In this document: positions 3,727-22,776 of the stretch, piece after piece
Layout of the letters: each line of letters opens with the position of its first letter
How positions within the stretch are numbered: position 1 is the first letter of the stretch
Assembly (NCBI GenBank): GCA_937951485.1
Contig: CALEDJ010000005.1
Location: 124,001 to 188,000 of the forward strand
Reading direction: 5' to 3'
Length of the DNA stretch: 64,000 nucleotides
From: an uncultured bacterium
Lineage (GTDB): Bacteria > Hydrogenedentota > Hydrogenedentia > Hydrogenedentales > CAILVY01
Program-made: the position numbers and the translations under genes
Notes under the pieces: model-generated
Seen by the model: only the letters and a program-made list of their open reading frames with translations
Databases searched by the model: none
Told to the model about the DNA's origin: nothing

Positions 3727-4761
3727 CTACCATGTTTCGGCGGCGGCTTCCAAGAACGCCTCGATGTTTTCCGTGGGCGCGCCCGGCGGCATGCCGCCGC
3801 CGCAGGAGAGCAGCACCCCCGCACGGTCGTTCAGGCCGCGAATCAATTCGCGCACCGAGACGCGCACGGCGTCGGGAGTGCCCTGCGCCAGCACGTCGCG
3901 CGGCGGGATATTGCCGAGCAGGGCGACTTCCGGCCCGGCGAGGCGGCGCACTTCGTTCATGGCGTGTTCATGGCTGAAGTTGAAGCAGTTGACGCCGGCC
4001 TCGGCGAGATACGGCGCGCAGACCAGGCCGTGGGCGTCGTTATGGAAGAGGCGCACCGACGCGGGGATCGCGGCAAAACACCGCTTGAGACAGGGCAGGG
4101 CGAATTCCCGGAAGTCCGCATCGCCGCAGAAGCCGACGAGATCATCCAGCAACAGAATGCCCTCAATCGTGGGGAATGTCGCCGCCTGCAATTGGAGCCA
4201 TTCCACGAGGAAACCGGTAATCTTGTCGAGAAACGTATGCGTCGTGTCGGGCGCCATCTTCATCGCCATGAGAAATTCCGTGTTTCCCAGGAGGAATCCG
4301 GCGATGTTGAGCGGACCGCGCGTGACCGCGAAGCGGATGACATGGCCCTGCGCCTCGATCATCGGCCGCGCGTGTTGCAGCCGCTTGATGACGAACGGGG
4401 CGAGGCCGTCGGTGCGGGGATTGGGCGCGGGCGCGGCGGCTGCCGCTTCGATGCTGTCAAAGCGGCGCTCGGCGAAGGGGAACTCGTTCTCATGCCAGAC
4501 ACACTTGGCGCCGAAGGCCGAAGGTTCCGTGCACATGCCCCATTCCGCCCAGAAGCCGGGCAGGAAAATCACGCCGGGGAAACGGCGTATGGCGGCAAGG
4601 TGCGCATCGAGCCAGCGCGATTCGCCCGTGTAATAGTCCAGGATGCTCATGCCCGCCCAGTTGGGCAGCCAGGGGCTGTCAACGATGAATGCGACGACGG
4701 GCCGGTCCGGCGTTTCACCGGCCACAACGGCGCGGATGCGGTCCCACTGTTCCTGTGTCAT
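3727..4761 (-). CDS. Uroporphyrinogen decarboxylase (URO-D) superfamily protein
   Basis: This is a 344-residue URO-D fold protein of the group that includes MtaA/CmuA-type methyltransferases rather than HemE. Supporting segments are 'LLLDDLVGFCGDADFREFALPCLKR', 'VRLFHNDAHG' and 'SHEHAMNEVRRLAG', then 'LLGNIPPRDVLAQGTPDAV' and 'SCGGGMPPGAPTENIEAF', typical of the URO-D C-terminal half. The N-terminal arginine-rich substrate motif of genuine HemE is not evident, so haem synthesis is unlikely. Members in this kind of genome are usually of unknown function. I chose ATG 4761 ('MTQEQWDRIRA'), preceded by GGGAAAAG; the ORF track's 4830 start adds a non-conserved stretch. Confidence 0.75.
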   Translation of the reverse strand: MTQEQWDRIRAVVAGETPDRPVVAFIVDSPWLPNWAGMSILDYYTGESRWLDAHLAAIRRFPGVIFLPGFWAEWGMCTEPSAFGAKCVWHENEFPFAERRFDSIEAAAAAPAPNPRTDGLAPFVIKRLQHARPMIEAQGHVIRFAVTRGPLNIAGFLLGNTEFLMAMKMAPDTTHTFLDKITGFLVEWLQLQAATFPTIEGILLLDDLVGFCGDADFREFALPCLKRCFAAIPASVRLFHNDAHGLVCAPYLAEAGVNCFNFSHEHAMNEVRRLAGPEVALLGNIPPRDVLAQGTPDAVRVSVRELIRGLNDRAGVLLSCGGGMPPGAPTENIEAFLEAAAETW

Positions 4762-5127
4762 GCGATGCTTTTCCCGGCTGTCCCGGCCATAAAATGATTG
4801 CAATGCACTATAGCAGATTGACCGGGACAAGCACAGTCAACAGCATCGCTGCAAAATCCCCCGGACCTGCAGGGGCTGCGGCGTATCAACAGATTTGTAC
4901 ATTTTTGCGTCACATATCCTTCCGGACCAGCAGAGGCTGGGCCTGTTCTTCTTCCCGGCCTGCAGGCGATCCCTGCTTGGCTGTCCCGGATGTGTTCGGG
5001 GATTTCAAATACCGCTGCTGGCAACTATGGATTTTGTCGCAACGGAACACATGAAAGGCGGACGGCGCGCACGCTGGAGGTCATACCGAAAGACGCGGGA
5101 TGATGGGAATGTTCTGGAAAAACGGGT

Positions 5128-5156
5128 GCCGCAGGGAAGAATGCCTTCCCTGCGGC
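5128..5156 (-). terminator. Perfect 12-bp stem hairpin with T-run on minus strand
   Basis: GCCGCAGGGAAG, a 5-nt loop, and its exact reverse complement. Read on the minus strand the stem is followed by ACCCGTTTTT, so it could end leftward transcription. It lies about 340 bp downstream of the leftward sigma-54 promoter at 5497-5514. Confidence 0.5.
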
Positions 5157-5263
5157 GTGCACATCTACCTCTGCCTCTGAGCCAGTCTCCTCACCGGAGC
5201 CAACATGCCCCTGGCATTCCGGATGCGCAAAGACTAGGATAATTGCTGTTTCATGCCCTCCAC

Positions 5264-5280
5264 TGTCCCATATTGGGACA
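5264..5280. promoter_or_regulatory. 17-bp palindrome TGTCCCATATTGGGACA
   Basis: Perfect dyad with a 3-nt centre. It shares the TCCCA/TGGGA arms with the sites at 5622 and 5645 but lies downstream of the predicted sigma-54 start, inside the proposed transcript. It may be a second regulator-binding site or an RNA hairpin. Confidence 0.5.
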
Positions 5281-5496
5281 CCGAGCATAATGGATGCAGC
5301 AACCTCCTGTTCCAAGCGATGCGGGTTGGAAGCGAACAACCGGGGGGTGTTTCCGGTGTGTGGGGTGCGGAAACATCCCTGTATTCCTGCCGTTTGATAG
5401 CATGGCTGCCCGCTTCCAAACCGTATCTCCGGTCACGCCGGTGATTCATCTGTGGCCTGTGGCACGCACGATGTCTTTACGTTGCCGCCAAAGGTA

Positions 5497-5514
5497 TTGC
5501 AAGGATGGTGCCAA
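5497..5514 (-). promoter_or_regulatory. Sigma-54 promoter (leftward), orphan
   Basis: Read on the minus strand, TTGGCACCATCCTTGCAA matches the sigma-54 consensus TGGCACG-N4-TTGCW at all but one position, with the required 10 nt between the GG and GC doublets. Transcription would start near 5485 and run left into a region with no recognised gene. The palindromes at 5622-5680 lie 110-170 bp upstream, a usual distance for bacterial enhancer-binding protein sites. Confidence 0.65.
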
Positions 5515-5621
5515 CGATGATTGACTTGACCGGATATTTCTTAATCTATTGCCATTACTTGCATTACAACGGTATCCATTTCTGTGGCGAAGGTTTTCCG
5601 GTTTCCAGGACCCCGCACGAT

Positions 5622-5680
5622 TCCCAATATGGGACGACAGAAAATCCCAAATTGGGACACAAGGATAATTTGTATCCCAT
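5622..5680. promoter_or_regulatory. Cluster of TCCCAnnnTGGGA palindromes (putative enhancer sites)
   Basis: Two perfect palindromes (TCCCAATATGGGA at 5622-5634 and TCCCAAATTGGGA at 5645-5657) have centres 23 bp apart, about two helical turns. A half-site (TCCCATATTA) follows at 5675. Their position upstream of the leftward sigma-54 promoter suggests binding by an NtrC-family activator. The activator is not encoded in this window. Confidence 0.5.
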
Positions 5681-5941
5681 ATTATCGCCCACCGTACGGA
5701 GGAATAAGCGCCCCGCTGCGGTCCATGCGGCGCTTATTCATGCCGCCCTGAGCAATTCGGATCACAAAGCGGGATTGTGTTTGGGCGGATTGCTCCCTTT
5801 TGCAGCGCACTGCACCGCACCGCGCGCTGGGCCGTCGCGGTGGGCATTCCTGGTAAGACGGATTGCGCGGTTGAGTTCGTGTGCCTGGGGGCGTTCAGGA
5901 TGCTTGTGGAGGTCGTCGTGGGGTCTGTTGCATGTTTTGAT

Positions 5942-5987: not shown

Positions 5988-6035
5988 ATGGCGCCACAAT
6001 CCCGTGGATTTGGCGACAGCGATAGGGACGGGTGA
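5988..6035 (+). CDS. Possible 15-residue leader peptide ahead of the TetR gene
   Basis: ATG 5988 follows a strong ribosome-binding site (GGAGGAAC) ten bases after the -10 box. It opens a 15-codon frame (MAPQSRGFGDSDRDG) whose stop overlaps GTG 6032, the first possible start of the TetR frame. It could couple translation into the regulator, or be a chance reading frame in the leader. No homology is recognised. Confidence 0.3.
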   Translation: MAPQSRGFGDSDRDG

Positions 6036-6070
6036 TTTTCAGTCTGAAAGCAGACAAAGGAAACAGCCGC

Positions 6071-6718
6071 ATGGCGCAGGAAATGGCGGGCAGAAAACTG
6101 GCCCTGATTCTGGCGGCGGGGGAGTTGTTCGCCGAAACGGGGCTGGATGGGACAAGCGTGCGGGCGATTGCGGAAAAGGTGGGCGCAAACATCGCAGCGA
6201 TCAACTATCATTTCGGCGGCAAGGAAAACCTGTACACGGAAGCGCTGCGTCATGTCATCCAGGAATGCGAGTGTCGGGGGGCGCGGCAGGCGCTGGAAGA
6301 CGAGAGTCATTTCGCCACGCCGGAGCGCAAGGCGGCGCTGCTGCGCGACCTGGTGCGGGAACGGTTCACCTCGTATTTTTCGCCGAGCCGCCCGCAGTGG
6401 TATGGACGGTTGGTAATCCGAAGCATGCTGGACCCGACGCCGTCGCTGGAGACCGTGGTGAAACAGTTGATGTTCCCGGAACATGAGGCGCTGGTGCAGG
6501 TCTTTCAGCGGATCAACCCGGCGTTGACAGCGGACGCGGCGCGCCTGTGGGCCTTCTCGCTGATTGGTCAGATCGGATTCTATGTGTTCGGGGAATCTGT
6601 CATCCTGATGGTCTTGAACACCCGACGCTATACCGCAGATTTCATGGATGCGGCGGCGGAGCATGTCTCCCGGATGATGATCGCTGCGATGGGGCTTCCG
6701 CTCCTCGCCGAGCATTGA
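6071..6718 (+). CDS. TetR-family regulator with CecR-type C-terminal domain
   Basis: This is a 215-residue repressor. The N-terminal helix-turn-helix is classic: 'ILAAGELFAETGLDGTSVRAIAEKVGANIAAINYHFGGKENLY'. The C-terminal half ('FPEHEALVQVFQRINPALTADAARLWAFSLIGQIGFYVF') resembles the DUF1956/CecR domain; in Escherichia coli, CecR controls drug-export genes. It is the first gene of a rightward cluster with outer-membrane factor, adaptor and RND permease (10 bp to the next gene), so it most likely represses this cluster and itself through the palindromes at 5942-5970. ATG 6071 follows AAAGGAAAC; GTG 6032 would add 13 residues. Confidence 0.85.
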   Translation: MAQEMAGRKLALILAAGELFAETGLDGTSVRAIAEKVGANIAAINYHFGGKENLYTEALRHVIQECECRGARQALEDESHFATPERKAALLRDLVRERFTSYFSPSRPQWYGRLVIRSMLDPTPSLETVVKQLMFPEHEALVQVFQRINPALTADAARLWAFSLIGQIGFYVFGESVILMVLNTRRYTADFMDAAAEHVSRMMIAAMGLPLLAEH

Positions 6719-22412: not shown

Positions 22413-22600
22413 AGGCTGAGATTCTGGCCTGAACGGCATACTCTCTATTGCTTCCCGGTAAGATTGGAAGCAATGCAACGAGTTGAAACCAAACAAGGTG
22501 CTGCTGGAACAAATGGTGAAACGGGATTGTTCAGATCATCGTTGTCCCGTTTTACGCTTCAAGAAACAGGTATCAGATATTTGAGGGTGCACCATGAAGA

Positions 22601-22643
22601 ACATCCCCCGGCGCTTCGCGCCACCCCCTTCAAAGGGGGATTT
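22601..22643 (+). repeat. REP-like element, copy A
   Basis: ACATCCCCCGGCGCTTCGCG and following bases form two small hairpins: GGCGC-TTC-GCGCC and CCCCCTT-CA-AAGGGGG. The same element recurs at 22777-22818, 22819-22857 and 48809-48843. Confidence 0.75.
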
Positions 22644-22776
22644 CACTTCCATGACCCTAAGTGGAGTTGTACGCCCTTCTAAAGGGGATTTCGTCTCCAT
22701 CCTTCAAGGGGGATTGCATGCCTTTGAATATGTGCGCGTTACGAAGATGCGCCTTTACTTGGAATCACGACAAGAA

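Follow-up and report, generated by a model that had tools for sequence, protein, structure and literature searches.

The window, that is, the whole 64,000-nucleotide stretch analysed (G000:C5:124001-188000), belongs to a genome of 4.55 Mb in 77 contigs, G000. Within it, a gene desert of ~1.3 kb without a convincing gene separates a URO-D-family gene (3727-4764, minus strand) from an efflux operon's TetR-family regulator gene (plus strand, from 6032-6718 onward). Read along the minus strand, the desert holds a palindrome pair, a sigma-54 promoter, a third palindrome and a terminator hairpin with a T-run, in that order. A sequence-only reading had pointed to a near-consensus sigma-54 promoter on this strand, to two perfect palindromes upstream of it and to a hairpin with a 12-bp stem and a downstream T-run on the same strand; all were found again in the sequence, at 5514-5497, at 5622-5634 and 5645-5657, and at 5156-5118, respectively.

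The promoter, TTGGCACCATCCTTGCAA on the minus strand (TTGGCAC-CATCC-TTGCAA), is assigned from its sequence, from its fixed distance in relatives and from the presence of RpoN in the genome. It lies 107 bp from the pair of activator-type operators, TCCCAAATTGGGA (distal) and TCCCAATATGGGA (proximal). The unmapped transcription start is inferred from the -12 element at ~5487 and the end is placed by the terminator T-run, giving a non-coding RNA of ~370 nt (5118-5487, minus strand). The third perfect palindrome, TCCCATATTGGGA at 5266-5278, is inside the transcribed region, and a relative (L009) carries TCCCGAATTGGGA at the corresponding place. Two short minus-strand motifs follow: motif A (CUCCGGUGAGG, 5189-5199), perfect complement of CCUCACCGGAG in a tandem sRNA, and motif C (GCAGAGGUAG, 5165-5174), which is perfectly complementary to CUACCUCUGC of one of the tandem sRNA copies in this genome. 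The 12-bp stem of the intrinsic terminator occupies 5128-5156; the minus-strand sequence after it is ACCCGTTTTT, with the T-run at 5122-5118, and the L009 RNA terminates with an identical GCACCCGTTTTT. The third palindrome, the RNA family in relatives, its complementarity to a second family and this tandem sRNA family itself were missing from the earlier reading.

Recurrence of the unit and of its activator

The operator pattern TCCCAwnwTGGGA occurs at only five sites in the 4.55-Mb genome, three of them within these 400 bp, against none for the reversed pattern, and TTGGCACN5TTGC occurs nine times against two. The search was extended to 68 genomes of the phylum (one order). With two palindromes and an allowed gap of 5-20 bp, six of the 68 genomes matched, always with a gap of exactly 10 bp, and the reversed pattern gave 0. 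Paired palindromes with up to two mismatches were found in 15/68 genomes, against 1/68 for the control. A search for one palindrome plus a sigma-54 promoter returned 23 matches (two for the control) and added G040 and G050; matches in G010, G034:C285, G051 and G054 were left out, as they had no paired layout at the usual distance. In total, the unit is present in 17/68 genomes of families f1, f7, f10 and f11, about once per genome, and in an eighteenth genome, G022, the palindromes sit at the end of a contig.

The geometry is fixed. The operators of a pair are spaced by exactly 23 bp in all relatives, and wherever the contig is long enough the sigma-54 promoter lies 104-107 bp beyond the pair, or 83-85 bp in genus g8, a distance shorter by ~22 bp, about two helical turns. 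Activator sites placed upstream of a -24/-12 promoter, in phase with the helix, define a sigma-54-dependent unit, and this one has them. Comparison of whole-segment DNA similarity in 40 relatives gave nothing except a chance coding match, and the genes downstream of the unit differ between genomes. One outcome that would have refuted the earlier reading was loss of promoter and palindromes beside conserved flanking genes; the opposite is observed, the unit being kept in 17 genomes with differing flanks. Operators, promoter, RNA fold, terminator and conservation of the unit are direct observations on the DNA. The activator-controlled RNA of ~370 nt that had been proposed is thus supported by promoter, operator pair and structured RNA being conserved together in 17 genomes. 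That a sigma-54-controlled RNA is real is well supported, and we have little doubt of it.

Some features of individual units are recorded here. The sigma-54 RNA of L005 (G049) adjoins a gene of the glnB/glnK type that has a sigma-54-like promoter to itself, and those of L006-L008 and L014 (genus g8) adjoin a sulfate adenylyltransferase-like gene, both genes being named by eye. Several of the RNAs of L004-L008 and L014 carry ACARUUGAAY near the 5′ end, a motif also seen upstream of several sRNA arrays (5′ regions L247-L261 and L293-L296).

The need for an NtrC-type activator, stated in the sequence-only reading, can now be matched to a protein family, FHA-GAF-Sigma54_activat-HTH_8, which combines FHA, GAF, sigma-54 activator AAA+ and Fis-type HTH domains; its binding to these operators is inferred. 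An ortholog with at least 42% identity is present in 17/17 genomes with the unit, as truncated fragments in G040 and G042. Searching with the N-terminal half gave one ortholog group (42-66% identity) in which all 17 genomes are represented, and G016 and G021 have an ortholog without a recognised unit. The activator gene is divergently adjacent to the unit in seven genomes (G001, G002, G008, G015, G020, G025 and G049). The copy of the window genome (L194, C45:49063-50910) has a GAYTGA loop besides its FHA, GAF, Sigma54_activat and HTH_8 domains, and RpoN is encoded on the same contig, C45. As this contig is away from the RNA locus, the activator would act from a distance in the window genome. 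With roughly one paired operator in each genome, we infer that the RNA is probably the main or only target of the FHA-GAF activator. In G026, a second paired palindrome with two mismatches (C176:5322-5357) was seen ~1 kb from the activator gene, a possible case of autoregulation or another target.

The sigma-54 RNA and a tandem sRNA family

The window RNA (minus strand, 5118-5488) is predicted to fold far more stably than shuffled sequences, with a z of -4.9 (60 shuffles) or -6.8 (20 shuffles). For 256 control segments from both strands of the window, the mean fold z was -0.4 with a standard deviation of 1.5, and one locus (22501) was more extreme. That intergenic locus, 22500-22740, has the most extreme fold z (~-10 for one strand, ~-9 for the other) and contains repeated AAGGGGGATT-like segments. 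Fold z went beyond -2.9 in 13/17 sigma-54 RNAs. Past the promoter, the sequences of these RNAs diverge quickly between genomes. Among the four genus-g8 RNAs ten base pairs are changed on both sides, and an f1 hairpin that reads GGTGGGT/ACCCACC in L009 is GGTGGACC/GGTCCACC in L019. Rfam gave no family match at the gathering threshold for the window or any of the relatives. An own promoter, a terminator, a stable structure and the lack of a conserved coding frame mark an sRNA, and all four are met, the last by inspection of ORFs only.

Two short motifs, CTCCGGTGAGG and GCAGAGG, recur among the sigma-54 RNAs. The former has five occurrences in G000 (reversed, 0), two of them 102 bp apart on C64; the one on C58 lies within a pentapeptide-repeat gene and was treated as chance. 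When both motifs were searched together in the phylum, 32 places in 18 genomes were obtained (control, 1), mostly tandem arrays. The tandem sRNA of the window genome consists of two copies at G000:C64:6706-6894. We considered and rejected the possibility that the tandem module is a homologous domain common to the sigma-54 RNA: U-runs and pair counts give the other strand. Indeed, the array gene lies on the opposite strand, where a U-run comes after the GGAGATGCC...GGCATCTCC hairpin, in that direction only, and the array helices show 19 G-U pairs against one A-C on the assigned coding strand; the assignment rests on these counts together with the U-run.

In the sense orientation, the sRNA is composed of CCUCUGC, a variable hairpin, ACGCACCUCACC, a terminator hairpin with a CCCCCU loop (GGAGAUGCCGG-loop-CCGGCAUCUCC) and a U-run. 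The segment CACCUCACCGGAGAUG is unchanged in 26 sRNA copies, and the C-rich single-stranded parts resemble anti-Shine-Dalgarno sRNAs, by inference. A covariance model detected the tandem sRNA in 41/68 genomes (E <= 0.05, one marginal), mostly as a single array in each genome, made up of one to seven copies. All 17 genomes with the sigma-54 unit carry it; many others have it without a sigma-54 RNA, so a sponge would not be obligatory. The Rfam search with L214 and L215 gave no match at E<=3 and a literature search turned up no relevant work on small RNAs of the phylum. The tandem sRNA family, present in ~40/68 genomes, is previously undescribed.

Two neighbouring observations concern the arrays and their motif. 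In L252-L257 (arrays in f5, f9 and f11) the array comes directly after a gene whose product combines a cohesin domain with a C-terminal membrane anchor, a neighbour not recognised in f1 and f10. In the window genome, L215 (G000:C19:31000-36000, minus strand, ~2560-2210) holds another intergenic RNA, in which CTCCGGTGAGG immediately precedes a terminator-like hairpin; a sigma-70-like promoter (TTGCAA-TATAAT) and a hydrophobic ORF of 30 codons (MQAVCDTVCLLLWVAVVVALLASVLATVGY) lie ahead of it. It may be the message of a small membrane protein that serves as an sRNA target or second sponge.

Complementarity between the two RNAs and its possible meanings

Both invariant single-stranded segments of the sRNA have perfect complements in the sigma-54 RNA, of 11 and 10 nt in the window genome. 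The longest perfect antisense runs within the same genome are 14 nt in G037, 13 in G034, 12 and 11 in G001, 11 and 10 in G000, 11, 11 and 10 in G050, 11 in both G026 and G031, and 10 in G002, against at most 9 nt for sense-orientation controls. A sponge is expected to be perfectly complementary to an sRNA encoded alongside it in the genome, and 8/17 genomes show this over 10-14 nt. No antisense run of at least 10 nt was found in G040, G041, G042, G048, G049 and the four g8 genomes; in these lineages either the pairing sites have changed or the function is different. The divergent g8 sRNAs may pair through GGGCUGCGG, which contained the best sites of G015 and G025 in an interaction scan.

Motif counts were far above those of shuffled sequences: TCCGGTGAG occurs in 7/17 sigma-54 RNAs (0.04 in shuffles), GCAGAGG in 9/17 (0.56) and both together in 4/17 (0), with 0 for sense controls. 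Outside the arrays, both motifs are found together only in four sigma-54 RNAs and in two coding sequences; the latter matches, L244 and L233, look coding and were treated as chance. The flanks track the local sRNA in some genomes: GCAGAGGTAG of the window RNA matches one C64 copy, and TTCGCAGAGGAT of the G001 RNA matches the first copy of G001's own sRNA. An accessibility-weighted interaction scan was in most genomes no better than with shuffled sequences. For G000 its best site was motif A, and 5/25 shuffles were equally good. The failure to beat shuffles is attributed to both RNAs being strongly folded and G- or C-rich. Whole-molecule duplex energies were uninformative. The exact complementarity, the sRNA family with its coding strand, and the co-occurrence and adjacency of the activator can be read off the genomes themselves.

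Several readings of the locus can be weighed against these data. The first indications were consensus matches only, and such matches may arise by chance in intergenic DNA without any functional unit; we give this practically no credence, as once-per-genome recurrence at fixed geometry contrasts with near-zero controls and the unit co-occurs with one activator family, so that conservation refutes it. Sequestration of CsrA through GGA motifs, as by CsrB/RsmZ-like RNAs, is suggested by a weak, sub-threshold RsmY-like match in L011 and by some GGA excess in a few RNAs, but CsrA is absent from nearly all f10 genomes, which carry the RNA, ANGGA is not clearly enriched overall and no Rfam match reaches the cut-off. 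CsrB/RsmY/RsmZ membership is not met on these grounds and the reading appears most improbable. CsrA, missing for instance from G031, G041, G042, G048 and G049, is present in most other genomes of the phylum. The locus could also encode a 5′ leader of the URO-D-family gene (3727-4764) or a small-protein message, which we consider very unlikely. In L010 and L015-L017 a protein gene does follow the RNA on the same strand; the unit may be leader-like there, and those genes, judged by eye, could have promoters of their own. However, a strong intrinsic terminator of the window RNA stands ~350 bp before the URO-D gene, downstream genes vary by genome, and fold stability and compensatory changes favour an RNA. 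The ORFs, called short and unconvincing before, include frames of 71-104 aa; the sole long one reads through the terminator, which leaves the formerly entertained very small peptide message unsupported.

The remaining readings accept both RNAs and differ on what the complementarity means, for the motifs are also compatible with an inverted fragment of the sRNA gene, or with the sigma-54 RNA being a target and not a sponge. Pairing is symmetric in sequence and does not indicate which partner is consumed, so the tandem sRNA could be acting on the sigma-54 RNA as its target, or control could be mutual. Yet this RNA has no convincing coding frame and ends in its own terminator, and the two to three sites in f1 and G050 fit a decoy; we hold this version improbable. 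Less easily dismissed, while still unlikely in our judgement, is a sigma-54-controlled trans-acting sRNA that acts directly on mRNAs or a protein, its complementarity being secondary (cross-talk, or descent by inversion). The units without long complementarity (g8, G040, G042, G048 and G049) and the non-significant accessibility-weighted pairing speak for it. Against it, the most conserved short motifs of the hardly alignable RNAs in f1, f11 and f10 are exact complements of invariant sRNA segments.

We therefore favour, with some reserve, the sigma-54 RNA as a sponge (decoy) for the sibling sRNA family, because it carries complements of exactly the invariant sRNA segments; no transcript or pairing data exist. 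According to this proposal, the FHA-GAF-AAA+-Fis enhancer-binding protein would act at the TCCCAnnnTGGGA operator pair, with a third site downstream in this genome, and the activated sigma-54 promoter would give rise to a terminated, highly folded non-coding RNA of ~370 nt. Through CUCCGGUGAGG and GCAGAGGUAG this RNA is predicted to base-pair with the two invariant single-stranded sRNA segments, and with the activator on, the C-rich anti-Shine-Dalgarno-like sRNAs would be titrated and their mRNA targets released. Pairing of the RNAs in the cell, inactivation of the sRNA by it, the sRNA targets and the activating signal are all inferred. For the complete picture, an undescribed RNA-versus-RNA circuit in which tandem anti-Shine-Dalgarno-like sRNAs are gated by a sigma-54/FHA-controlled sponge, the only recurrent operator target found for the activator, we consider the case evenly balanced.

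Relation to known regulatory systems

Enhancer-binding proteins that drive production of a regulatory RNA from a sigma-54 promoter are known from Qrr/LuxO, GlmY/GlrR, CrcZ/CbrB and NrsZ. The present unit is like them in its activator, its sigma-54 promoter and its RNA product, and differs by the FHA-GAF activator, the TCCCAnnnTGGGA pair at 23 bp and an RNA unrelated in sequence. FHA domains fused to a sigma-54 activator are found in the NtrC-like activators of Myxococcus xanthus; unlike these, the activator described here contains GAF as well, and the one recurrent operator found for it stands ahead of a non-coding RNA. Most of what is known about RNA sponges comes from a small number of well-studied bacteria. 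If the proposal is true, the same logic operates in a distant, mostly uncultured phylum, which would suggest more than one origin, and two new RNA families come with a ready-made activator and operator code. An apparent gene desert then becomes a testable regulatory gene, and a functional handle is gained on the FHA-GAF class of sigma-54 activators.

In Campylobacter jejuni, the RpoN-linked sRNA CJnc230, processed from flgE mRNA, forms with CJnc170 a two-sRNA circuit with opposing effects in flagellar control (PMC11187230), which differs from the circuit proposed here in having no tandem array and another layout. The Alpha-r14 ('cuckoo') sRNAs, e.g. NfeR1 of Sinorhizobium, form hairpins exposing conserved C-rich anti-Shine-Dalgarno-like motifs (PMC10746234). 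The tandem sRNA is comparable in its exposed C-rich motifs, which are CCUCACC, CCUCUGC and the CCCCCU terminator loop instead of CCUCCUCCC; membership in Alpha-r14 is not met, with no Rfam match, a different motif and no homology shown. In Caulobacter crescentus, the CrfA sponge was shown experimentally to act on the sibling sRNAs SisA-D, a G/A-rich CrfA loop pairing with a 10-mer common to SisA-D that has an anti-Shine-Dalgarno signature (PMC12559287). Here, in contrast, a single array holds the siblings as tandem copies, the putative sponge is made from a sigma-54 promoter with a dedicated FHA activator, and the pairing is only predicted. The proposed circuit would follow the same logic and be functionally like that of Caulobacter, with unrelated sequences: the RNA families are new, and the type of regulation is already known.
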